Notes under the pieces: model-generated
Seen by the model: the letters and a program-made list of their open reading frames with translations, nothing else
What the model was told of the DNA's origin: nothing
Databases searched by the model: none
Program-made: the position numbers and the translations under genes
DNA from: Bryobacterales bacterium
Lineage (GTDB): Bacteria > Acidobacteriota > Terriglobia > Bryobacterales > Bryobacteraceae
Reading direction: 5' to 3'
Length of the DNA: 64,000 bases
NCBI GenBank assembly: GCA_016789755.1
Contig: JAEUQG010000356.1
Coordinates: 1 to 64,000 of the forward strand
Shown here: piece after piece, positions 4,066 to 17,000 of the stretch
Numbering within the stretch: the first letter of the stretch is position 1
Layout of the letters: every line of letters starts with the position of its first letter

Positions 4066-5145
4066 TCAACTGCCCAGACAAATCACCTTGCCGTCCTGGG
4101 TTGCGATCACGACGCGGCCTTCGGACAACGCAGGGCTAGCCGAGACGGGGCCGCCGGCTTCGAACTCGAACAGCTTGGTTCCCTTGGCCGCGTCCAGCAC
4201 ATAGAGCCGGCCGTCGTTGGAGCCGATGAAGACTTTGCCGGCACTCACGGCGGGCGACGATTCCACGCGAGCACGCGTGGTGAACTCCCACAGAACCTTG
4301 CCCGACTTCGGGTCCATGGCGCGGACGATCTTGTCGCGCCCGCCAAGAATCACCCTGCCGTCTGCCACAGCGGCCGACGAATAGAAGGGGAACTTGCGAA
4401 CCGGATGCTCATAGCGCCAGGCGATCTTGCGGGCCTTTCGGTCCAACGCCAGGATTTCGTTGGCGTAAGTCCCGACAAAGAACACGTCTCCGAGAATGGC
4501 CGGCGAGGCGCCCATGTACGATCCGGTTTTGATTTGGTACATCTCCTTGCCGTCTTTGATGTTGATGGCCCGGAACACGCCGTCACAGCCGGAAACATAA
4601 GCGAGTCCATCCTGCACGGCCGGGGTTGCGTGGACGGGGCCATCGGTGTGGAACGACCAGAGTTGTTTGCCGGTCTTCAGGTCGAGCCCGTAGAGGTTGC
4701 CGTCATACGACCCGATCAACACACGGTCTCCAACCACTACCGGAGACGACTTGATCTCGCTTCCCGTGGCGTAGGTCCAGGCGGGCCTCCCATCCGCGGC
4801 ATGAACCGCATGCACGACACCGCCCAGATCGCCGATAAGCACCAATCCCCCGTTTACGGCGGGTGTCGATTCGCCCACCGCTTCCTTGGTCTTGTACTTC
4901 CACTTCGGCTTACCGGTCGCCAGGTCCAGAGCGAGCAGTTCCTGAGTCGAAGATCCGATGTAGACCACGCCGCCCTCGATGGCTGCCGACGACTCGATGA
5001 CATCCCCGGCCTCGTACGTCCAGAGCACTTTCAATTGCGCGGGTACATTCGCGGTGCTTACCCCGGTCAGCGACGGGTTGCCCCGGAACTGCGGCCATTG
5101 GGCGAGCATCGGCCAAACCAAGACGAACAGAACTACCAGGCGCAT
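4066..5145 (-). CDS. PQQ-like beta-propeller repeat protein, secreted
   Basis: A 359-residue protein with a signal peptide ([16 protein letters not shown]) and then [12 protein letters not shown], the usual opening of acidobacterial and planctomycete outer-membrane PQQ-like propellers related to BamB. At least seven repeats of the form V-x-GGxVYIGSSDGxLYALDxxTGKxxW run through the protein. No cytochrome domain, no dehydrogenase catalytic residues and no lipobox are visible, so it is better regarded as a binding scaffold than a quinoprotein enzyme. Its ATG lies 13 nt inside the end of the Fe-alcohol dehydrogenase gene, so the two are translationally coupled. Confidence 0.85.
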
Positions 5146-6239
5146 TCGTACACCTCCCGAGCCCCCGCAGCATCGAGCGGGCGCGGATTAAACCTTCCCG
5201 TCCATTGATGCGACGCAGCCTCACTCAGTTGCGCGAAATCCGATTCTTCCACGCCCGCGTCGCGCAACCGGCGCGGCAACCCTGCCGCCAGCGCCAGTTC
5301 CTCCAGCCGTTCCGGCAGGGAGGAATGCAGTTCCCTGTATGATCCATGCACAGCCGCCGCATTCCACCGCACCACATGAGCCAGCAGCAGTGCGATGGCC
5401 GTCCCGTGCGTTGTCCCATAGCGTGCGGTCAGCGGATTGGCGCAGGCGTGAGTAGCCCCTAGCATCGAATTCTCGATCGCCATTCCCGCCAGATGAGAGC
5501 CCAGCAGCATCTTGCCCATAGCCTCCAGGTCATCGGCGGCTGTCACCACGCGCTCGAAGCTGGACTCCATCAGACGCCAGGCTTGCATGGCGAAGCTCAG
5601 CGAAATGGGATTCCGTTTCGTGGTGACCCAGGTTTCCACGGCGTGGCTGAGGGCGTCGTACCCAGCGGTGGCCTTCACCGCGGCGGGCGCCGTCAGGCAC
5701 AATTCCGGATCGAGCAATGCGATGCGGAACGCCGCCTGCGGATCGCCGCATGCCATCTTGACATGCGTTTCGGCGTCGCTGATTAAGGCGTACGTCTGCG
5801 CCTCGCTGCCGGTGCCCGCCGTTGTCGGCACGCCGATCATCGGCAGCATTGGCTTGGTGGCTTTGCCCCAACCCCAATAACCCTTCATGTTGCCGCCGTT
5901 GGTCAGCACGAAGTTGATTCCCTTGGCGCAATCCATCGAACTGCCGCCGCCCAGCCCGACGATCGAATCCACATGATGCGGGCGCGCAAAGGCGCGGCCC
6001 TCGTCCACCATCTTCGTGTCGGGGTTGGCATCGAAGCCGTGAAAGGGATAGACGTGAATGCCCTCCGCCTCCAGTTGCCGCACCGCCGCATCGACATAGC
6101 CGGCCGCGCGCACACCCTGGTCGGCCACCAACAGCGAACGGTGGAATCCGAGTTCCTTCGCCAGCCTCCCCAGATCCCGGAACTTCCCGGCCCCATAAAG
6201 CACGCGTGTGCGCGGAAGATAATCCAGTTCCGCTTGCAT
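5133..6239 (-). CDS. iron-containing alcohol dehydrogenase
   Basis: A 368-residue group III (Fe-ADH, PF00465) oxidoreductase. Seen: the NAD(P)-binding [13 protein letters not shown], the [16 protein letters not shown] segment, and a metal-site set from D and H in [11 protein letters not shown] in [11 protein letters not shown] and H in GTTHGTAIA. The family reversibly oxidises alcohols or lactaldehyde-like substrates with NAD(P)H; this member's substrate is unknown. It starts 2 nt after the amidohydrolase gene and overlaps the downstream propeller gene by 13 nt. Confidence 0.9.
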
Positions 6240-6241
6240 TC

Positions 6242-7669
6242 TTACTCCGTCGTTCTACCTTTCCCGCTGCGCGCCTGTTTCGCGATTTCCTTCACTTCGG
6301 CCAAGAGCTTCGGCGCGTGATAGACATAGCCGTCTTTGATGGTCCACTCGATGCCGCGCCGCAGCGGACTCAACAGCTTCAGATTCTCCAACGGATTGCC
6401 GTTCACAATCAGCAGATCCGCCGTCCAGCCGGCGCGCACGCGGCCGAGCGTTCGCTCCTGACCCAACATCTTCGCGCCGTTCACCGTGGCATGCTGAACG
6501 ACCTGTAGCGGATGGAACCCCGCCTCCTGGTGCAACTCCAATTCACGCAGGAATCCGAACCCGTACATCTGATAGATGTAGCCGGCATCCTCGCCCGTGG
6601 TGACCGTGCCGCCCATACGCGCAAAATCTCTGACGGCCTTCATCCAGATCCGGTAGTTCTCTTTCCAATACACTTCGTCCGCCGTGCTCCAGTCGAAGAA
6701 GTACGACCCGTGGTTTTCCCGGCTTGGCTGGAAGAACTTCTCCAGAGCGGGGTGCAGATATTCGCGAAACTCCGGCTTCGTTTCGGCCCGCTGCAAATCC
6801 CGGCTGGCTTCGTAGATATTGAACGTCGGGTCCCAGGCGACACCGGCTTTCACCATCCCGGCGAGCACCTTTTCCAGCAAGGCTGGATCGGCCTCCCGCC
6901 ACAGCCTGCCGGCGTAACGAAAACGGTGGACTTCGTCGGCGTAGTTGTAGTCAGGCGGGAAGTTCTGCACTCCGTCGCGCAGGGCGGCGTCAGGGATTCC
7001 ATACCAATGTTCAATCGTGGCCGTGCGGTTGGCGATGTTGTCCCAGGCGTTGGTCTCCTCCACGCCCACATGGTGCGCCACGGGAAGCTGCAAGGCTCTG
7101 GCTTCCTCCATCATGGCGTTCATCGTGTCACGGTGAATTCCGACAATCTTGATGCCGTCGGCGCCCATTTGCTTGAGCTGGCGCACGCGGGCTCTCGATG
7201 CATCCGGATCGGCGGGCCGCCCGAAGAAGGGATACAGGAACAGGCGAGGCGCGGCGACACGGCCTTCGCGCGATGCCTCGCGCATCGCCTTCGTCCTTTC
7301 GAAATTGCTCCCTACATCGCGGACGGTAGTGATGCCGCTTGCCAGCCAGAGCTTGAACACATACTCGACGGGCATGGCCACGCCGCCGCGCTCGTCGTGG
7401 CTGTGGCCGTGCATGTTGATGAAGCCGGGGAGGACGTACTTGCCCTTGGCATCGATCTCCACGCCGCCCCGGCCCGCCGGACCGCCGACACTGCGGATGA
7501 CGTTGTTCTCCACGACGATGTCGCGCGGGCCGGAGGCGGGCGTGCCGTTCCCCTCCAGCACCATCGCATTGCGGATGATCAATCTGGCGTATCGCCTGCC
7601 GTGTTCGGGCTGTTGCCCGTACAGGCAGAATGCGGCGGCCAGCGCCGCAATCAGGCGGCCAGCGTACAT
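6242..7669 (-). CDS. exported amidohydrolase (imidazolonepropionase/prolidase-like)
   Basis: About 475 residues with a signal peptide (MYAGRLIAALAAAFCLYGQ). A small N-terminal beta domain (LIIRNAMVLEGNG), the first metal motif GFINMHGHSHD, a mid-barrel AHHVGVEE and a C-terminal Asp in TTGEDAG identify an amidohydrolase-1 superfamily member. Its C-terminal WTADLLIVNGNPLENL is the standard closing of this group. Start at 7669 was preferred over an in-frame ATG 39 nt upstream because it opens the signal peptide and overlaps the upstream stop by one base (TAATG). A related amidohydrolase lies at the far right end of the window. Confidence 0.85.
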   Translation of the reverse strand: MYAGRLIAALAAAFCLYGQQPEHGRRYARLIIRNAMVLEGNGTPASGPRDIVVENNVIRSVGGPAGRGGVEIDAKGKYVLPGFINMHGHSHDERGGVAMPVEYVFKLWLASGITTVRDVGSNFERTKAMREASREGRVAAPRLFLYPFFGRPADPDASRARVRQLKQMGADGIKIVGIHRDTMNAMMEEARALQLPVAHHVGVEETNAWDNIANRTATIEHWYGIPDAALRDGVQNFPPDYNYADEVHRFRYAGRLWREADPALLEKVLAGMVKAGVAWDPTFNIYEASRDLQRAETKPEFREYLHPALEKFFQPSRENHGSYFFDWSTADEVYWKENYRIWMKAVRDFARMGGTVTTGEDAGYIYQMYGFGFLRELELHQEAGFHPLQVVQHATVNGAKMLGQERTLGRVRAGWTADLLIVNGNPLENLKLLSPLRRGIEWTIKDGYVYHAPKLLAEVKEIAKQARSGKGRTTE

Positions 7670-8907
7670 TACCTTTGCACCGCGCCGCCGCGGCCCATGA
7701 TCGGCCAAACGTCGACGATCCGGTCGCCGTCGGCTACGTAGTAACGGTCATAGACGTTCGTGCTGGTGTCGAGGTTGGAGCAGTACAACTCCACCTTGTC
7801 GCCCAGCTTCAACCCGTCGCCGTCGTTCCATTTCAGGATGCCGTACTCCGCGCCCTGATTCTCCACCTTGATCTCCGGGCGTCCCTTCACTTCATCGGTG
7901 GGTTTCAGCATAGCCTTGTTCCCCGCGTCGATTGTCACCTGGCCGCGGTGATTGGCGCTCACCGCCGTGGTCAACACCGTCAGCGAAGTCTTAAAGTCCG
8001 AGTACTCTTTCGTGCCCGCCTTACTCCCCACGTACATGTACAGCGTGTCCATGAAGACGTAGGAGCCGGCTTGCAACTCCGTTAACCCGATTTCCTTGTC
8101 GATGTTGTAGGTGCCTGTGCTGCCGCCGGTGATGAGGGGAACATTCAATCCTGCCTTTTTGCAAAGCATCGCTGTTTCCACCACGGGTGCGATGTCCTTG
8201 ACCGACTTCTCGCGGCGGGTCTCCCAACCCTTGGTATGCGAGGCGCCGCCGGAATAGCCCATGACGCCGCCGAACTTCAAGTTTTTCTTCGAGTCAATGC
8301 GTTTGGCCAGTTCCAGGCCGGGCTGTCCGGTGGCGTGGCCGGCGCGGGTCAGTCCGGAATAGAGGTCGATGAGAACGATCGGGCGTATGCCCGCCGTTGC
8401 CGCGGCCTCATCGAGCAGATCCACAGTGATCGGATCGTCGGCAACCATCATGAACGAAGGATCTTTCTTCGAGAGCAGGATTCCGCGCCAGATCTTGTTC
8501 TTCCCCGCGGGCTGGCAAGTGTAGAGTACGTTCTTGATGCCCGCCCCTACCATCAACTCCGCCTCGGCGATGGTCGCGCAGCAGATACCCAGCGATCCGA
8601 GAGCCACCTGCCGTTTGGCAACGTCTGTCGATTTGTGAATCTTGCAGTGCGCGCGCAGGTCGATTCCGGTGCGTTTGCAGTGCTCCGCCATTGTCTTCAG
8701 GTTCTGATCGAAAAGTGCTTTGTCCAATACCATGCACGGCGTGGGCAGGTCGTCTTTGAAAATACCGGTGAAGTCCTTGCGAGCGATCTTGGCTTCGATA
8801 TCCGCGTAGCGGAAGGGACGTTTCGTCAAACCGGGAGTGCTCGCGGCAGATGCCCAGGCACTGCCGAAAGTGGTAGCTAGCATGGTTCGGCGGGTCATGC
8901 CGTTCAT
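7669..8907 (-). CDS. PLP-dependent alanine racemase-fold protein, D-threonine aldolase/D-serine dehydratase-like
   Basis: A 412-residue fold-III PLP protein with a Tat-like leader (MTRRTMLATTFGSAWASA), so probably periplasmic. DLPTPCMVLD begins the barrel. R85-x-H-C-K89-I-H-K is the signature of D-threonine aldolase and DSD1; K89 should hold PLP. GGSTGTYN near residue 270 would bind the phosphate. In DSD1 enzymes a C-terminal H-x-C pair binds Zn; here the matching region reads VELYCSNLD, with Cys but no His two places before it, so the metal site may be altered. Substrate unknown. It is 6 nt downstream of cobT and overlaps the next gene by one base. Confidence 0.8.
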   Translation of the reverse strand: MNGMTRRTMLATTFGSAWASAASTPGLTKRPFRYADIEAKIARKDFTGIFKDDLPTPCMVLDKALFDQNLKTMAEHCKRTGIDLRAHCKIHKSTDVAKRQVALGSLGICCATIAEAELMVGAGIKNVLYTCQPAGKNKIWRGILLSKKDPSFMMVADDPITVDLLDEAAATAGIRPIVLIDLYSGLTRAGHATGQPGLELAKRIDSKKNLKFGGVMGYSGGASHTKGWETRREKSVKDIAPVVETAMLCKKAGLNVPLITGGSTGTYNIDKEIGLTELQAGSYVFMDTLYMYVGSKAGTKEYSDFKTSLTVLTTAVSANHRGQVTIDAGNKAMLKPTDEVKGRPEIKVENQGAEYGILKWNDGDGLKLGDKVELYCSNLDTSTNVYDRYYVADGDRIVDVWPIMGRGGAVQR

Positions 8908-8913
8908 GATAAC

Positions 8914-9921
8914 TCAGTCCGGCTGGGACGGTTCGGATCGGGCTACACCGGCCCCGTCGAAAGTGGCCATCTCGTGATAGATGCGGCAGGCGGTCTGGAA
9001 AAGTCCGATCAGTAATGCCGCGCCCGATCCCTCTCCTAGCCGCATGTCCAGGTCCAGGCAGGGACGCGCTCCCAATCGCTGCAACATGAGGCGATGGCCC
9101 TTTTCCGCGGACTGGTGCGAATAGAAGACGCAGCGCAGCGCGGCCGGGTCCAGAGCCTGCACCACCAATGCCGCGGCGCAACTGATGAATCCATCCAGCA
9201 CCACCGGAAGCCGATGCCGTGCGCCGCCGAGGATCATCCCTGCGATAGCCAGGATCTCGAAGCCCCCGAAGGCGGTGGCGATATCCATCGGATCCCGCGA
9301 AGAGTGCAGCGCCAGTGCGCGCCGCAACACCTCCACTTTTTGCTGCACGACGGCCGCATCGGAGCCTGCGCCAGCTCCGGCTGCCTCTGCCGGATCGACT
9401 TCGCCATAGGCGCAAAGCAGGGCCGCCGCGGATGTCGAATTTCCGATGCCCATTTCCCCGCATGCCACAATGTCGAACCGTCGGGCCGCTTCCGCCGCCA
9501 ATTGCGTGCCTACCTCCAATGCCTGCAACCCTTCGGCCCGCGACATGGCCGGCTGCCGGGCAAAGTTAGCGGTTCCGTTGGCGACCCTCCTTGAAAGAAC
9601 ACCTGCTACCGGCTCTCCGGCGATTCCGGCATCCACGACGTGTGGCTCAATTCCGTAGTGGCGGCACATCACGCTGATTGCCGCGCCGCCGCCAACGAAG
9701 TTCATGGCCATTTGCCGTGTCACTTCGCTTGGCCAGGCGCTCACCCCTTCGGCCACCACTCCGTGATCGCCGCAAAACAAATAGGCGCCCGCCCGAGGCG
9801 CCGGCGGCGGTTCCAACTCTCGAAGGCGGGCATAATCGAGGAGCATGTCCTCCATCCGCCCGAGACTCCCGGGAGGCTTGGTCAGGGAATCCAGATGCTT
9901 CTGCACACGCTCACAGATCAT
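8914..9921 (-). CDS. cobT: nicotinate-nucleotide--dimethylbenzimidazole phosphoribosyltransferase
   Basis: Makes alpha-ribazole phosphate from nicotinate mononucleotide and dimethylbenzimidazole, the lower-ligand step of cobalamin assembly. About 335 residues, close to the usual 350. Diagnostic pieces: LDSLTKPPGSLGRMED at the N-terminus, GDHGVVAEGVSAWPSEVTRQM, GMGIGNSTSAAAL (reads EMGIGNSTS here) and the catalytic Glu in DMRLGEGSGAAL near the C-terminus. ATG 9921 was preferred over one 75 nt upstream because the extra residues do not match the family; it overlaps the cobC stop by 11 nt. Confidence 0.95.
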   Translation of the reverse strand: MICERVQKHLDSLTKPPGSLGRMEDMLLDYARLRELEPPPAPRAGAYLFCGDHGVVAEGVSAWPSEVTRQMAMNFVGGGAAISVMCRHYGIEPHVVDAGIAGEPVAGVLSRRVANGTANFARQPAMSRAEGLQALEVGTQLAAEAARRFDIVACGEMGIGNSTSAAALLCAYGEVDPAEAAGAGAGSDAAVVQQKVEVLRRALALHSSRDPMDIATAFGGFEILAIAGMILGGARHRLPVVLDGFISCAAALVVQALDPAALRCVFYSHQSAEKGHRLMLQRLGARPCLDLDMRLGEGSGAALLIGLFQTACRIYHEMATFDGAGVARSEPSQPD

Positions 9922-10429
9922 ATGTCCGTATCTCGCAGTAGTCCTGTAGGAAGCCCTCGGGCCGCCGGCCTGTGAGCAACGAATCGAGCACCGCATGCAG
10001 ACCCTGATGACCTACCGCAATGGCAGGGAACGGACCCTGGCGGATTCGAGTAAGCGCCCTCTCGGCGCGGGTAACAATCTCCTCCCAACGTTCCCCCCCG
10101 GGTGCGGGGATGCCGAACCAGTTGGTGAGCTTCTTTGCCGCCAACTCTGGCCATTCGTCCTCCACTTCACTCCAGCGCAGGCCCTCCCAGTCGCCCATGC
10201 CGATCTCGGACAAGTCCGCGAGAGTGACGCGCTCGATGGATTCCGGCAAACATGCGGCGGTTTCCTGCGCCCTGCGCAGAGGGCTGACGTAGCATACCGC
10301 TGCGTGCAGTTTCGGCAACGCATTGCGGGTCTGCGCCAAGCCGGCTTCGCTCAAGGCCGTGTTGAACCGTCCGAGCAAAACCCCCTTGCGCTCCGGTTCT
10401 CCGTGTCTTACCAGAAGCAATTGCGGCAT
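9911..10429 (-). CDS. cobC: histidine phosphatase, probable alpha-ribazole-5'-phosphate phosphatase
   Basis: A 172-residue phosphoglycerate-mutase-superfamily protein. LLLVRHGEP carries the phospho-accepting His9; later elements are SPLRRAQETA, the acid Glu in SEIGMGDWEG and the second His in AVGHQGLH. By sequence alone it is only a histidine phosphatase, but its place between cobS and cobT, overlapping both (22 and 11 nt), supports removal of phosphate from alpha-ribazole phosphate or adenosylcobalamin phosphate. Confidence 0.88.
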   Translation of the reverse strand: MPQLLLVRHGEPERKGVLLGRFNTALSEAGLAQTRNALPKLHAAVCYVSPLRRAQETAACLPESIERVTLADLSEIGMGDWEGLRWSEVEDEWPELAAKKLTNWFGIPAPGGERWEEIVTRAERALTRIRQGPFPAIAVGHQGLHAVLDSLLTGRRPEGFLQDYCEIRTYDL

Positions 10430-11133
10430 GAAACAAATAGTAGAGCAAACGTTTCCGACACCAGGCACGTGGCGCCCAGGCAATCGCCATTGACTCCACC
10501 CAGCCGCGCATCGAACCAGCGATTCAAAACGGATGTGGACAGTCCTGCCGCTACCAGGATCGCGGCGCCGGCGGCAACACCGGGAAGAAAGGCAAATGCA
10601 ACGCCGCTGGCGATGGCGAAGACGGCGGTGATGGAATCCAGGTCGCGCGAGAACGCCGCTCCCAATCCATCGCCCACCGGGCGCGAGACCCACGCTTGCG
10701 CTACCAGAGCGGCACGAGAGACAGCAAGGCAAGCCACCAAGTCCCTGACGCCATCGGCTGGCAGCCGGGTCAACGCCTGCCAGCGCATGGCCACTACGTA
10801 AACCAAGGCCAACGCGCCGAAGACCCCGATACGGCTGTCCTTGAGGATGGCGGTCATTTTCTCCCGCGACCGGTGGGCGCGTAAAGCATCTGCTACGTCC
10901 GCCAGGCCGTCTTCGTGCAACCCTCCGGTCACCAGCGCCAGGAAAGCTAGCACCAGCACGGCGGTGAGCGAAGACCCCAACGACGGCTCCAGCATTCGCA
11001 GCCACTGTCCGGCGAGCCATCCCAAACCAGCCCCTACGAGAGGGAAAAAGAGGGCGGAGCGACCGGGCGGCGCCGTTCGCCCCCGTATGGGCAGCACCGT
11101 AAGGAACTGAATCGCCCCCAGCAGCCGTCTCAT
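10408..11133 (-). CDS. cobS: adenosylcobinamide-GDP ribazoletransferase (cobalamin synthase)
   Basis: About 241 residues, integral membrane. FLTVLPI near the start, GGLHEDGLADVADAL with its acidic Mg-binding residues, KDSRIGVFGALALV, and GGVNGDCLGAT near the end are CobS hallmarks. Multiple hydrophobic helices follow. It joins adenosylcobinamide-GDP to alpha-ribazole, the last step of nucleotide-loop assembly. The ATG at 11133 overlaps the cobU stop in an ATGA arrangement, and the 3' end overlaps cobC by 22 nt. Confidence 0.95.
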   Translation of the reverse strand: MRRLLGAIQFLTVLPIRGRTAPPGRSALFFPLVGAGLGWLAGQWLRMLEPSLGSSLTAVLVLAFLALVTGGLHEDGLADVADALRAHRSREKMTAILKDSRIGVFGALALVYVVAMRWQALTRLPADGVRDLVACLAVSRAALVAQAWVSRPVGDGLGAAFSRDLDSITAVFAIASGVAFAFLPGVAAGAAILVAAGLSTSVLNRWFDARLGGVNGDCLGATCLVSETFALLFVSCRNCFW

Positions 11134-11639
11134 CCCTTCACCTTCAGAGGGCAGCCGAAGGCCATCCAATACACGGCATCGGCCGCCTGCGCCATGCGCT
11201 GATTCATCCATCCGGCTTCATCGCGAAAGCGCCGCGCCAGGGCGTTTTCCGGTACGATTCCGCAGCCCACCTCATTGGTAACCAGGATCACAGGCCGCTC
11301 TACGCATGCCGCGACGACCGCCTCGCCGGCCGGACGAAGGTCCTCTACGCCTGCCAGTATCAGATTACTCACCCAAAGCGTGAGGCAATCGACGACGGCT
11401 GCATCGAATTTTCCGGCATGTTGCGTGATCGCTCCGGCCAAGTCCCGCGGCGCCTCGACGGTCTCAAAGCGGGGTCCACGTTCCAGGCGATGCATTTGCG
11501 CTCTGCTACACATTTCATCATCCAACAGCTCTGCCGTTGCGATGTAGAGCAGGCGGGAACCCTTTCCGGCAGCTAAATCGAGGGCGAACCGGGTCTTACC
11601 GCTGCGGCTGCCGCCCCCTACCAGAATCACTCGCGTCAC
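11130..11639 (-). CDS. cobU: adenosylcobinamide kinase / adenosylcobinamide-phosphate guanylyltransferase
   Basis: A 169-residue bifunctional enzyme that phosphorylates adenosylcobinamide and then guanylates it. VILVGGGSRSGKTRFA is the P-loop, YIATAELLDDEM and the following MHRLERGPRF (with the His that carries GMP) and VVDCLTLWVSNL are diagnostic; VTNEVGCGIVP is the conserved C-terminal motif. The start is GTG at 11639, overlapping the Rrf2 gene stop in a GTGA arrangement. No corrin-ring genes are nearby, which fits cobinamide salvage or a locus split across the genome. Confidence 0.95.
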   Translation of the reverse strand: MTRVILVGGGSRSGKTRFALDLAAGKGSRLLYIATAELLDDEMCSRAQMHRLERGPRFETVEAPRDLAGAITQHAGKFDAAVVDCLTLWVSNLILAGVEDLRPAGEAVVAACVERPVILVTNEVGCGIVPENALARRFRDEAGWMNQRMAQAADAVYWMAFGCPLKVKG

Positions 11640-12148
11640 ACCTGAGGCGGGTGAACGCAGTCGTTCATCTTTTCCTGGAGCATCGGCTGGATCTGGATGC
11701 TCTGAGCAGACTCGAGAAGGCGGGACATGTCGGATTCCCCGCAGAGCAGATCCTTTAACGTTACTTTGCGCAGCACCCCATCCAGGACCTCCTGGACGGT
11801 AGTCCAGAGTACCCGTAGCGCGCAGTCGGTGGCGTGTGTGCAAACTTTGCCTAGTCCGGAGTGACGGTCGCAGAATTTGGGGCTGAAGAAGCGTCCGCCG
11901 AGCACGTCCATCACTGATCCGACGGTGATTTGGTCCGCCGGTTGAGCCAGAGTGTAGCCGCCCGCCTGGCCCCGAACGCTCGTTACGATTCCTCCTAACC
12001 GTAGAAGTCTCATCAACTTGGCGACGTTGGGAATGGACAAGCCTTCGGCCCGGCTGATTTCGGGGATACTGAGGCTCTCCCCATCCTGGAGCCGTGCCAT
12101 ATGGATCAGGCACCGAAGCCCGTACTCTTCTTGGGCGCTCAACTTCAT
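11636..12148 (-). CDS. Rrf2-family transcriptional regulator with three-cysteine cluster
   Basis: A 170-residue winged-helix regulator (MKLSAQEEYGLRCLIHMA opening). The recognition helix region reads GLSIPNVAKLMRLLRLGGIV. Three cysteines at 93, 103 and 109 (spacing 9 and 5) resemble the Fe-S ligands of IscR, NsrR and RsrR, with a wider first gap than the CX5CX5C common in NsrR, so Fe-S binding is likely but unproven. The extra tail of about 45 residues after the cluster is unusual. Its stop overlaps cobU by 4 nt, so it is coupled to the cobalamin genes and may sense redox or NO to control them. Confidence 0.88.
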   Translation of the reverse strand: MKLSAQEEYGLRCLIHMARLQDGESLSIPEISRAEGLSIPNVAKLMRLLRLGGIVTSVRGQAGGYTLAQPADQITVGSVMDVLGGRFFSPKFCDRHSGLGKVCTHATDCALRVLWTTVQEVLDGVLRKVTLKDLLCGESDMSRLLESAQSIQIQPMLQEKMNDCVHPPQV

Positions 12149-12154
12149 TCCACT

Positions 12155-12160
12155 ATTCTA
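12155..12160 (-). promoter_or_regulatory. -10 element of the rrf2-cob operon
   Basis: TAGAAT on the minus strand, 6 nt before the Rrf2 ATG, inside the 48 bp gap after the kinase gene. A TTACGT lies 16 nt further upstream. The gap is far too short for a cobalamin riboswitch, so control would come from a protein or from read-through of the kinase transcript. Confidence 0.35.
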
Positions 12161-12196
12161 GTGCATGTGAACGAAAACGTAAGGAATGAATCGGCC

Positions 12197-13843
12197 TTAG
12201 CGCGATTTGGCTGGGGCGGTGAAGCCGATTCCTACCGGACTGAGGGTGCCGGAAGGCTCCGGGGTCTCCTGCGGAGGGGCGATTTCCACCCGTTGTTCGG
12301 GCAGGTTGGTCTGCCACCAGGCCGCGGCGTCGTCGTCACTCCAGGCGAACTGGTTGCGCAGGCAACGAAGACGGCGACCCAATTCCTGCGCCGAGAAGAT
12401 CCGCTTAGTGGGGTCCTTCTCGAGTAGTTGCATGACGATGTCTTCCAGGGCGGGGGGGATGGGCAATTCCGTCCTCTGGCTGGGCGGCACCGGCGGCTTT
12501 TGCACATGGGCGATGGCGAGGGCCGTTGGGTTCGTTTCGGTAAAAACCATCTGCCCGGTCAGGAGGAAGTAGGCAACGCACCCCAGGCTGTACAAATCGG
12601 CTCGGCCATCGATGGTCTGTTCGCCCATGGCGATCTCGGGTGAAAGATAGGCCGGCGTGCCGGTGGCGGTCCCTTCCATGGTGTGGACGGACATATCTTC
12701 CCGCATGAGAGTCTTTACCAGCCCGAAATCAAGCACTTTGGTGAAGTCGTACTCCAGGCCGAGACGGCAAAGGAAGATGTTTTTCGGCTTGATGTCGCGG
12801 TGGACCATGCCGGCGCGGTGCGCCTCTTCGAGCGACTGGCAGACCTGGGAGAGGATGCGGACGACACGGCCTGCGGGCATGGGGCCGTAGCGATCTATCA
12901 ATGATTGTAAATCGATTCCGTCCAGCAGCTCCATTACGTAGTAGAAAGTGTTGTCTTTCGTCTTGCCGAAATCGAACAGGGCCACTGTGTGCGGGCTGCG
13001 CAGACTGGCCGTGGCTTTCGCTTCGCGCTCGAAGCGCCGTTGGATGACATGCTCCTGGCGTGCCGAGACACCGGCCAGAACTTCGGGCCGGATTAGCTTG
13101 ATGGCCGCATCGCGGGCCAGCATCTTGTGCTTGGCACGCCAAACCTCGCCCATGCCACCCTTGCCGATCATGAAATCGAGAGTATAGCTGCCCAACTCTT
13201 CGGCCTTCTGTTGCGTCAACTGCATCTTGAACATGCGTTTGCTGAGGACGTACATCCAGACGGCCATTAAGAACATGGGGAACAGCCAGATCGCCAGCCG
13301 GTTCCAGGGGAGGGGGGCAAAGCCGTACAGCCGCAGGTTAATGGCGTAGGCGAACGGCCAGGACGCGGCACTCAACAAACCGGCGAGTCCTGCTTTCATC
13401 GGCGAGTTCGGCAACAGCAGGCCACACAGCGACAACCACACTGCAACCGAAGACAAGCCACGGACGGGTTCGTTCGGATTCCAGCCGAGCGAAGTTTCGA
13501 ACATCGCGATAGCGAAGCTAACCGCAATCTGAAACACAATCCCAAGGTCGATCAGTGTTTCCTTTTTCACCAGACTGTAGCGGTTGACGGCGGTCAACCC
13601 GACGGCGAGCAGCATCAAGCCCAAGAGGGTAAGCCGCAGGGCCGGCTTATCCAACATGGCACTCATTTCCGGCTGCAACAGATTCTGCAGAGAGAACGTG
13701 ACCACGGTGGTGACCGCGCACATGACGGAGATCCAGCACAGCCTCTCCGCCGCCTTCTGAACCATGGCGGGTGGGAGTTTGAAGGCCACAGGACTGGGGC
13801 TATCCATCCCGCTTGACGCTCTGGCAACCTGCATCGGATCCAC
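12197..13843 (-). CDS. membrane-anchored serine/threonine protein kinase with N-terminal multi-pass domain
   Basis: A 548-residue Hanks-type kinase. Residues 30-210 hold five or six hydrophobic helices. The kinase domain follows: IGKGGMGEVW loop near 225, AIKLIRPE with the catalytic Lys, HRDIKPKN near 346 and LDFGLVK for DFG, then TPAYLSPE. A Pro-rich tail follows. Most bacterial membrane kinases have the catalytic domain first and a single helix after it; here the order is reversed, so the membrane part may be the sensor. The start is GTG at 13843, with AAGGAG 9 nt upstream. It faces the TonB receptor gene across 171 bp. Confidence 0.9.
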   Translation of the reverse strand: MDPMQVARASSGMDSPSPVAFKLPPAMVQKAAERLCWISVMCAVTTVVTFSLQNLLQPEMSAMLDKPALRLTLLGLMLLAVGLTAVNRYSLVKKETLIDLGIVFQIAVSFAIAMFETSLGWNPNEPVRGLSSVAVWLSLCGLLLPNSPMKAGLAGLLSAASWPFAYAINLRLYGFAPLPWNRLAIWLFPMFLMAVWMYVLSKRMFKMQLTQQKAEELGSYTLDFMIGKGGMGEVWRAKHKMLARDAAIKLIRPEVLAGVSARQEHVIQRRFEREAKATASLRSPHTVALFDFGKTKDNTFYYVMELLDGIDLQSLIDRYGPMPAGRVVRILSQVCQSLEEAHRAGMVHRDIKPKNIFLCRLGLEYDFTKVLDFGLVKTLMREDMSVHTMEGTATGTPAYLSPEIAMGEQTIDGRADLYSLGCVAYFLLTGQMVFTETNPTALAIAHVQKPPVPPSQRTELPIPPALEDIVMQLLEKDPTKRIFSAQELGRRLRCLRNQFAWSDDDAAAWWQTNLPEQRVEIAPPQETPEPSGTLSPVGIGFTAPAKSR

Positions 13844-14014
13844 CTCTTCTATCTCCTTACTAGATTACGCGAACTGGCGTTTGGTTTCAGATCAGGCAAA
13901 AGCCGACCGAACAATATTAATTACGGTTCATCCCCGGCGAGCGGTTCAACTTCTTGCAGGGCCGTAATGTGTCAAAATGATTACATATTTGTTACAGTCT
14001 CAGAGGTCCGCATT

Positions 14015-17000
14015 ATGACATTTCGTAACCTGATTGTTTGTAGTATTTTAGCTGCGTTTTCGGCGTTCGCGCAGAACCCCGTGGTCTCCGGCCGCATCGT
14101 GGATTCGAGCGAAGCCGCGCTTCCCAACGCGAAAGTTGACATCGGCAACCGCGCCACTGCGGTTCGCACCACCACCACCACAAACAACGAGGGCTATTAC
14201 GTCACGCCCCCGCTTCCGCCGGGAATTTACGATATCACGGCATCCGCCACCGGATTCAAGGAAGCCCGCATCGATGCCTTACGTCTGGAAATCGGGCAGG
14301 CCCGCACCATCAACATGACGCTGCAGCCGGGTGAGGTGAAGGAATCCATCACGGTCAGCGACACCGCTCCATTGCTTACCACGAGCCGCCCAGATCGCGG
14401 CACGGTGGTGGAGAACAAGTTTCTAATGTCGATTCCGCTGAACATCCGTAACCCCTATTTGCTGCTGGCAAATGTTCCGGGAGTGACGACGGGCCGTCTG
14501 GCCGGCGACAACACGGCGTCGCAATCGACAACGAACAACTTCCGGATCAATGGAGGACGGGGATCCACCAGCGAGATCCTGATTGACGGCGCGGCGAACA
14601 CGGGCACGTACAACAACCAGGTTTCGGCGATGCCGCAACTCGACTCGATCCAGGAGTTCAAGGTCAACACATCGCCCTACGCGGCCGAGTTCGGACGCAC
14701 AGGCGGCGGGGTAGTGAGCTTTTCCATCAAGTCCGGGACGAACGATCTGCATGGCACCTTTCATGAGTTCCTTCGCAACTCCGTGCTGGACGCCGCCGGG
14801 TTCAACTCCAATCGCGCGGGGCTGACGTCGAAGCCAACCTTCCAACGCAACCAGTTCGGGCTCACCAGCGGTGGTCCGGTGTTGCTCCCGAAACTGTACA
14901 ACGGCAAGAGCCGCACGTTCTGGTTTTTCGCCTACGAGGGGCTGCGCCAGCGCAGTTTGAATCCGTACACGGGCACGGTACCCACGGAGTTGGAGCGGGT
15001 CGGGAACTTCTCGCAGTCGCGCGACACGAATGGATCTCCGTTTCTGCTCTACGATCCACGCACTACACAACTGGATCCGGATCGTCCCGCGGGCACGACA
15101 CGCTATATTCGGACGCTGTTCCCAGGCAACATCATCCCCTCATCGATCCTCAACCCGATTGCGACCAACGTGCTGAAGTACTACCCAACCGCCACGCAAC
15201 GCGGACTGGGCCAATCGGACATCAACAACTTTTTCGTAGCCGCGGCCAATGCTCTCGACGGGAACCGCGTGGACACGCGCGTGGATCATCAGATCAACGC
15301 CAAGCACACCGCTTTCGTCCGGTACAACTGGTTTCAGAACATCAATGCCCAGCCGTTGGTATTCGGCCACTTCGCCTCCCCCGTGGAGACGCCGAACCGT
15401 ATTCCGGGGATCAATATTGTGGGCAACCACACCTGGACAATGGGTGCGGGAACGATCTTCCAGCATCACTTCTCGCTGGCGCAGAGCGAAACCAATCGCA
15501 CCCCGCTGAGCATCGATTTCGACCAAACATCGCTCGGGTTGCCGCGCAGTCTGGTGGACGGCCAGCGGGTGAAATACTTCCCGCGTTTTTCGATCGGCGG
15601 GCTGACGCAACTGGGGGTTACGGGAACCGGTTACAACGCGGTGAAGTCACGGACGTGGCAATACAACGCCTCGGTGACGATGCTGCGAGGCAAACACACG
15701 TTCAAGATGGGCGCCGATTTCCGGCGCTTCCCGGTGTCGATTGACCAATCTTCGCCGTTGGCATTCAGTTCGTCGGGTTCCTTCACCGCGGGGCCGAATC
15801 CGCAAGCCGCAGCGGCGCGTACGGGGCGGGGGCTGGCAGATCTGATGCTTGGTATTGCGTCGGTGAGCTACCAGATCCGGCCATTGGAATTGCACCGTCA
15901 TCCTTATTACGCGTTATTCTTCCAGGATGAATGGAAATTGAAGCCGCGCCTGACGCTGACTTTGGGCATGCGCTACTCACTTGAACTGCCCCGCACGGAA
16001 GACGCGAACCAGTATGTGTTCCTCGACATGGACTCGCCGAGTCCGCTGGAGGGGAAAGTGGCGGGATTGAGCGGGCTGCGCGGAGGTGTAGGCTTTGTGG
16101 GGGTGAATGGAGTTGGGCGCCGCACGCAACTGGCCGACCGCAACAACTGGGATCCGCGCATCGGCATCGCGTACGAACTGAACGAGCGGACTGCCATCCG
16201 ATCCGGTTTTGGCGTGTTCACTTCGTCTATCGCTCCGAACACCGACGCCGCACTTGGCTTCTCTGCGACGACGAGCTCACTTGTGGCTCAGCCGGACGGT
16301 GTCACACCGCTCTACAACCTCTCTAATCCGCTGCCCGGCGGATTCATCCAACCGACAGGAAGCGCGCTTGGGCTTTCGACGAATCTCGGCCAGGGCATTT
16401 CAGGTCCGGTACGACAACAGCGATTGCCCTACCAGATGCAATGGTCGCTCGACGTGCAGCGTCAACTGCCGTGGCAGACGGTGGTGGAGGCCGGCTACGC
16501 GGGTTCGGCGGGAGTAGCGTTGCCGAGCGGCGTGCAATACAACCAACTGCCCGATCAGTATCTTTCCTTGGGCACGCAACTCAATGCGACGGTGGCCAAT
16601 CCCTTCTTTGGGGTGATCACGGAGCCCACCTCGACACTGAGCCGGACTACTGTGCAGCGCGGCCAACTGCTGCGACCTTTCCCGCAGTTTACGGGAGCGT
16701 CGGCCAGCCAGGCGCCGGCCGGGCATTCCACATATCACGCGATGCAGATGCGCGTGGAGCGCCGGTTCGCGGATGGTCTGGCGCTGTTGTTCGCCTACAC
16801 GCATTCGAAGCTGATCGACAATGTCGGCGACTTTGGCGGGTTCCTTGGACCCGGCGGCTTCGCCAACAACAACTGCTTCTCCTGCGACCGGTCAGTGTCC
16901 TTCTACGATATTCCGGATGTCGTGCGCCTCAGTTTGCGCTACGAACTTCCCTTCGGCGTCGGCAAGCCGCGCGTCAACAAAGGCGTGATGGCGCGGATCA

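Follow-up and report, generated by a model that had tools for sequence, protein, structure and literature searches.

Cobalamin (B12) genes are usually controlled by an RNA switch, the riboswitch, and within the Rrf2 superfamily of regulators E. coli IscR represses its own promoter. The described system closest to the one reported here is RisR of Myxococcus xanthus, a member of Rrf2 group IS6 that PMC9973013 reports to act on suf and isc as an Fe-S repressor. According to that paper, the group includes Acidobacteria, the Myxococcus gene sits ahead of suf, and the cysteines of the protein are C92, C102 and C108. For Streptomyces NsrR, the available part of PMC5411485 gives Asp8 as a ligand. Among the literature matches listed, we found no report linking an Rrf2 regulator to the control of cob genes, and no such link is shown in the accessible portions of PMC4263372 and PMC7726332.

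We analysed a 64-kb stretch of DNA (the window) from a genome of 8.2 Mb, assembled in 596 contigs and 87% complete. On its minus strand an rrf2 gene is followed by cobU, cobS, cobC and cobT, each overlapping the next. The features of the locus are as follows.

12197-13843, minus strand: Ser/Thr kinase gene, upstream of rrf2
12155-12160, minus strand: -10 box TAGAAT of a predicted leaderless promoter, 6 nt before the rrf2 ATG
11636-12148, minus strand: rrf2, RisR-like regulator of 170 aa (PF02082, 105.4 bits; tree placement)
11130-11639, minus strand: cobU (PF02283, 176 bits; NF004469 above cut-off; profile scan over 11130-11642)
10408-11133, minus strand: cobS (PF02654; TIGR00317 above cut-off), overlapping cobU by 4 nt
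9911-10429, minus strand: cobC-like histidine phosphatase gene (PF00300; best match TIGR03162, below cut-off), overlapping cobS
8914-9921, minus strand: cobT (PF02277; TIGR03160 above cut-off), overlapping cobC
7669-8907, minus strand: gene of the alanine-racemase-N / D-ser_dehydrat family (PF01168, PF14031), 6 nt after cobT

The chain of overlaps had been described in an earlier note on this DNA, and both the gene coordinates and a direct reading of the first junction bear it out: cobU starts with GTG, and the GTGA that it has in common with the rrf2 stop makes the 4-nt overlap. The interval singled out there, 11130-12148, takes in rrf2 and cobU and falls short of the full run, which extends to 8914. 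The name cobC is given on context and family because the TIGR03162 score of 94 bits lies below the cut-off of 163. The gene at 7669-8907 is BhcC-like, with a score under the cut-off of the BhcC model, and, being on the same strand as cobT, possibly belongs to the same transcript; a counterpart follows cobT in L079, the closest relative of the locus (94% identity), and in G042 (cluster c21).

The regulator belongs to the Rrf2 superfamily, its PF02082 score comparing with a cut-off of 30 and its TIGR00738 score of 96.8 bits with one of 73.3. It falls below every NCBIfam equivalog cut-off tried, namely those for IscR (69.3 against 207.6 bits), NsrR (60.9 against 182), RirA (55.5 against 193), CymR (72.6 against 195) and suf_reg_Xantho, the SUF regulator TIGR02944, which gives the top equivalog score (73.6 against 110.7). 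An AlphaFold model (mean pLDDT 79.5, dropping to a low-confidence 55-56 across the cysteine loop) shows the Rrf2 fold with its winged helix, and Foldseek matches it to IscR, NsrR, RsrR and CymR with E values of 5e-9 to 2e-4. The three cysteines C93, C103 and C109 form a C-x9-C-x5-C motif and are invariant, as are E7, E8 and C13, in 28/28 rows of an alignment of chosen sequences that includes the window (A1), which agrees with the earlier assignment to the Fe-S type. We infer that the protein binds an Fe-S cluster, in which E8 may be a candidate ligand by analogy with Asp8 of Streptomyces NsrR. The cysteine spacing, which the earlier note had contrasted with the CX5CX5C of NsrR, is a mark of the SUF-operon/RisR-like subfamily and not of a B12 role: it occurs in 95 of 99 rows, including 61/61 from the window's own family (clade A, below) and 31/35 from SUF-linked proteins. 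Five residues at or close to the putative recognition helix (S38, P40, N41, V42 and M46) are identical in all 61 clade A rows and variable among the 35 SUF-linked rows, a pattern in keeping with changed targets. Between the window and L079 the regulator is 92% identical, compared with 77-84% for the cob genes, and its dN/dS is 0.026, a rough figure with dS near saturation.

Relatives of this regulator stand with suf genes in 25 named loci from other Acidobacteriota, Gemmatimonadota, Neomarinimicrobiota, Latescibacterota, Armatimonadota and other groups; 24 of them have the gene behind suf, whereas in L150 it precedes sufB. In a tree of 101 distinct proteins of the 154 found, RisR not being among them, the window's family makes up a branch of 61 rows, clade A, which is separated with moderate support (86/91) from the 35 SUF-linked ones; the clade A counts omit outgroup rows L002 and L005 and third-group rows L137, L138 and L142. 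The label SUF needs 3 changes on this tree and the label B12 needs 7, the latter taking in L116 and the G125 remnant described below. At E 1e-20 the window protein has a match in 86 of 150 genomes of the order, 40 of which were put in clade A by identity (at least 58%, across 142 residues or more; the count excludes a fragment in G050). SUFBD (PF01458) is present in 43 of the 46 genomes with another rrf2, in 5 of the 40 clade A genomes (complete in G053, G103 and G117, shortened in G118 and a single weak match in G040) and in none of the 64 genomes that lack this rrf2; the window's own genome, at 87% completeness, gave no match. NifU_N (the IscU/SufU family) is found in 149/150. The simplest history would be that ISC replaced SUF and the SUF regulator survived, and because G053 and G103 carry a SUF-linked copy alongside the clade A one, a duplication before the loss of SUF is also possible.

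Upstream of rrf2 the window reads TAGAATagtggaATG. The pattern TAnRAT, picked after viewing 30 of the loci, precedes the ATG by 4-10 nt in 55 of the 61 genes of clade A, the window included (by exactly 6 nt in 43); among SUF-linked genes it does so in 1 of 35, and its background frequency is 2.4% of positions. The transcript is therefore predicted to be leaderless and would have no room for a leader RNA switch. The earlier argument had been that the gap between rrf2 and the kinase gene (12149-12196, 48 nt) cannot hold a riboswitch. A riboswitch upstream of the kinase gene, also looked for, was not found: the window has no Rfam match at gathering score, and the region 5000-15000 has none to E 1. 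DNA of 77% identity is shared with L079 from 12162, two bases upstream of the -10 box, to 7362, where the L079 contig ends, and blastn gave no match between the two upstream of 12162. The shared unit thus begins at the promoter, and we judge the kinase gene to lie outside it; that gene has no tblastn match in L079, and its sole match (E 1e-20) beyond its own genome among the compared loci is one of 35% in L039. The gene order of the window recurs in L079, where rrf2 and cobU are separated by a gap of 3 nt instead of overlapping, and the arrangement appears in looser form in further relatives.

Conservation of the rrf2-cob neighbourhood, which the earlier note had proposed as a check, proved partial. 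B12 genes lie on the same strand within about 8 kb downstream of rrf2 in 17 of 40 clade A genomes, from six genera, which is a lower bound because downstream coverage was uneven (about 1.5-8 kb), and are absent from the stretch examined in the remaining 23. The linked genomes are listed here.

g1: G000, G083, G042, G044, G124
g11: G060, G105, G026, G070
g12: G039, G049, G052, G040, G030
g14: G063; g38: G114; g35: G103 (behind a radical SAM gene)

Among named loci with at least 3 kb downstream, whose organisms overlap with these genomes, B12 genes follow rrf2 in 19 of 45. The run in g11, g12 and g14 is rrf2-(OpuAC)-cobQlike-cobD-btuF-btuD-btuC-(cobU)-(cobT)-ftsX, and clade A runs also occur with OpuAC, a radical SAM gene, or ftsX and an ABC ATPase. 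The gap from rrf2 to cobU is 92 nt in G083, and gaps behind rrf2 measure 53-289 nt in other clusters, which would give room for separate promoters. At least 37 of the 51 named loci of clade A have glgP as their divergent neighbour, a count that may be low because some gene models run into rrf2 (L082, L086). CobU scores above cut-off in 18 clade A genomes, near rrf2 in 10 and far away or on another contig in 8, and also in 13 of the 46 genomes with another rrf2 and 17 of the 64 without this one. Two g1 genomes have their cob cluster elsewhere: in G118 it is riboswitch-led, and rrf2 has no B12 genes in the stretch examined, while in G125 a CobS remnant sits right behind rrf2, a 213-aa open frame matching CobS over its second half only (27 bits) and devoid of the GGLHEDGLADVADA-type block found in other CobS sequences. 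At L045:8408-9049 stands the CobS remnant that immediately follows rrf2 in a genome of the window's genus, an open frame missing the conserved block. Separately, rrf2-led B12 clusters contain a CobQ relative of about 288 aa with no Pfam match (for example L047:7987-8853), seen in 11 named loci and in G039, G049, G060 and G105; by eye it lacks the glutamine amidotransferase part and is perhaps a shrunken, inactive CobQ.

In a genome-wide search that scored a capped number of candidates per genome, the genome of the window has two cobalamin riboswitches, one before cobQ-btuF-btuD-btuC (C199) and one at a TonB receptor gene (PF07715; C85). These stand at other B12 genes, so that the nucleotide-loop genes are split from the riboswitch-led ones. 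A riboswitch lies inside the cluster in 3 of the 17 linked genomes: in G044 and G124, of the same genus as the window, between rrf2 and the cobQ of a cobQ-to-cobT run, and in G103 after the radical SAM gene (L116). The other 14 clusters (the window, L039, L040, L047-L049, L056, L075, L100, L107, L110-L112 and L218, matched to their genomes by contig coordinates) were scanned directly and gave no cobalamin riboswitch, and each of these genomes has at least one elsewhere, in G039 before a TonB receptor. The named loci L083 and L085 also have a riboswitch in an rrf2-linked B12 cluster. Folding of 17 gaps behind rrf2, to look for an undescribed RNA switch, returned z-scores of -1.5 to 1.1, apart from L081 (-2.6) and L103 (-4.1), in a test that is insensitive, since L084 and L085 hold real riboswitches at z = -0.5 and 0.0; seven such gaps, when aligned, show little conservation. 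G060 (C1) carries two cobU genes, 156671-157165 and 3059824-3060333, one behind rrf2 without a riboswitch and the other adjoining a strong cobalamin riboswitch.

The search for a binding site upstream of rrf2, suggested at the outset, yielded no operator conserved among the promoters of clade A. When 43 of these were aligned on the -10 box and scanned for dyads, a maximum of 4 sequences had 5/6 pairs, whereas the maxima of shuffles averaged 3.1 and went as high as 5. The RisR palindrome GAC-N7-GTC occurs in 0 of the 61 clade A regions of 150 nt upstream of rrf2, that of the window among them, where shuffles give 1.9 on average. The dyad CACTAgaaTAGTG of the window overlaps the -10 box; only its ACTAgaaTAGT recurs, in L079, and because no other row has it, among the matches listed, it was not counted as an operator. 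A 24-bp near-palindrome, AATCTTGACTTTTTnGTACAGATT, recurs before sufB in L130-L158, L054 and L055 and so is common to SUF promoters from several phyla. We modelled it from 24 sufB upstream regions with a seed chosen by eye post hoc; in this training set 22 of 24 score at least 12.9, seven of them being near-identical sequences from Neomarinimicrobiota, and L150 and L161 fall below. A general carry-over of this operator was rejected, with scores of at least 14 in 4 of 61 clade A regions (three from the window's genus) against 0.33% of shuffles; the best such site in the window, at -39 to -16, scores 8.8 bits, a value expected by chance in about 5%. Genome-wide, at up to 3 mismatches, the motif was found in none of the 40 clade A genomes, in 2 of 8 added SUF genomes, both times just before suf, and in 1 of 4 without this rrf2, while the reversed motif as control gave 0 of 52; the clade A negative is weak because the search misses 6 of the 8 SUF genomes. 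In three loci of the window's genus (L083, L084 and L042), the glgP-rrf2 intergenic region carries paired sites resembling the SUF motif (12-23 bits), which could make glgP a target.

We favour the reading, at a probability of about 0.6, that the window encodes a RisR-like Fe-S regulator, left an orphan by the loss of SUF, whose transcript also carries cobUSCT. The protein would descend from regulators located at SUF operons; SUF would have been mostly lost in its family, leaving the isc operon with its own Rrf2, and the orphaned gene would have been kept and transcribed from its own leaderless promoter. With cobU-S-C-T directly behind rrf2 and overlapping its stop, these genes are likely cotranscribed with it from the rrf2 promoter, bypassing B12 riboswitch control, while the genome retains riboswitches for cobQ-btuFDC and the TonB receptor. 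If Rrf2 represses its own promoter in the manner of E. coli IscR, as we infer, then completion of cobamides would be coupled to the status of Fe-S or iron; control by Fe-S, redox or iron is possible, and plausible by position and family. The patchy linkage counts against the favoured reading, as do the lack of a conserved operator, the gaps wide enough for separate promoters, the moderate support for clade A and the gene at 7669-8907, which at 94% is conserved as well as rrf2 itself. The stronger version, in which a SUF-derived Fe-S sensor has been rewired such that genes for cobamide completion and uptake answer to Fe-S or iron through an autoregulated leaderless promoter and not a riboswitch, we regard as rather doubtful.

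Much of the evidence on neighbours could be read as passenger linkage, in which genome shuffling put cobUSCT behind a constitutive leaderless promoter and the regulator has its targets elsewhere. The divergent glgP, unrelated to B12, is a commoner neighbour than B12 genes are downstream (at least 37/51 against 19/45), the runs include OpuAC, radical SAM and ftsX-ABC ATPase genes, rrf2 persists where the cob genes have gone (G118 and, with its remnant, G125), cobU is present in 17 of 64 genomes that do not have this rrf2, and the B12 label changes 7 times on the tree. This account has a substantial chance, short of even, and must contend with a linkage that persists in two separate clades and with 14 of 17 clusters that have no riboswitch in genomes that have one elsewhere. 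The same two observations, together with the set of Fe-S ligands, are what speak for the proposal of the earlier note that Rrf2 is a dedicated B12 regulator directly sensing redox, NO or iron. The family and the linkage on which that proposal drew were confirmed, but a riboswitch intervenes between rrf2 and the cob genes in G044, G124 and the named loci L083 and L085, 23 of 40 clade A genomes have no B12 genes in the stretch examined, glgP is the commoner neighbour, and no shared operator was found; we consider it unlikely.

A different target would be the isc operon, if the clade A Rrf2 had taken it over in trans. Of 21 clade A genomes looked at, 20 have GAC-N7-GTC in the 250 nt before the Rrf2 gene of isc, where six fixed bases would place it by chance in about 6% of 250-nt regions. 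However, 19 of 20 genomes without a clade A rrf2 carry it too, and isc encodes an Rrf2 of its own in 21/21 clade A genomes looked at, with three cysteines (C-x6-C-x5-C in L001). Control of isc by the clade A protein was rejected on the equal occurrence of the palindrome, and a takeover is very improbable. Each isc upstream region has one to three copies in 39 of 41 genomes, for example upstream of 1896 in L001.

Under the favoured reading of an orphaned SUF regulator, the protein appears to have outlived its operon in part of the family and to have acquired a promoter of its own; some lineages have it before B12 genes without the usual RNA switch. Were this to extend to regulation, completion of B12 would depend on the supply of Fe-S clusters, a connection of which there is no report among the literature matches listed. 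Even without control of B12 the history of this orphaned regulator can be traced, and the analysis provides two DNA motifs through which Fe-S control in Acidobacteriota could be tested.

Set against known systems, the window protein shares the Rrf2 superfamily with IscR, NsrR, RirA, CymR and the Xanthomonas-type SUF regulator and lies under the cut-offs of all of them. The locus has the same cob genes as operons controlled by the cobalamin riboswitch RF00174, which is present in G044 and G124 of the same genus and absent at the window cluster. The Rrf2 proteins of SUF operons (25 named loci) are 43-61% identical to that of the window, with E7, E8 and C13 in common and the same cysteine spacing in 31 of 35, but their genes lie behind suf in 24 of the 25 loci, in operons whose promoters carry the 24-bp near-palindrome, whereas the window rrf2 is not at suf. 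Adjacency to SUF or ISC, a mark of RisR and group IS6, is thus seen in the 25 named relatives and not in the window. RisR itself resembles the window protein in its Rrf2 family, in its three cysteines at x9/x5 spacing and in the association of the wider subfamily with SUF, a likeness drawn from the cysteine positions in the available text of PMC9973013 and not from a direct comparison with the RisR sequence. Unlike risR, the rrf2 of the window has no GAC-N7-GTC palindrome and lies away from SUF and ISC, ahead of cob genes and behind a predicted leaderless promoter.
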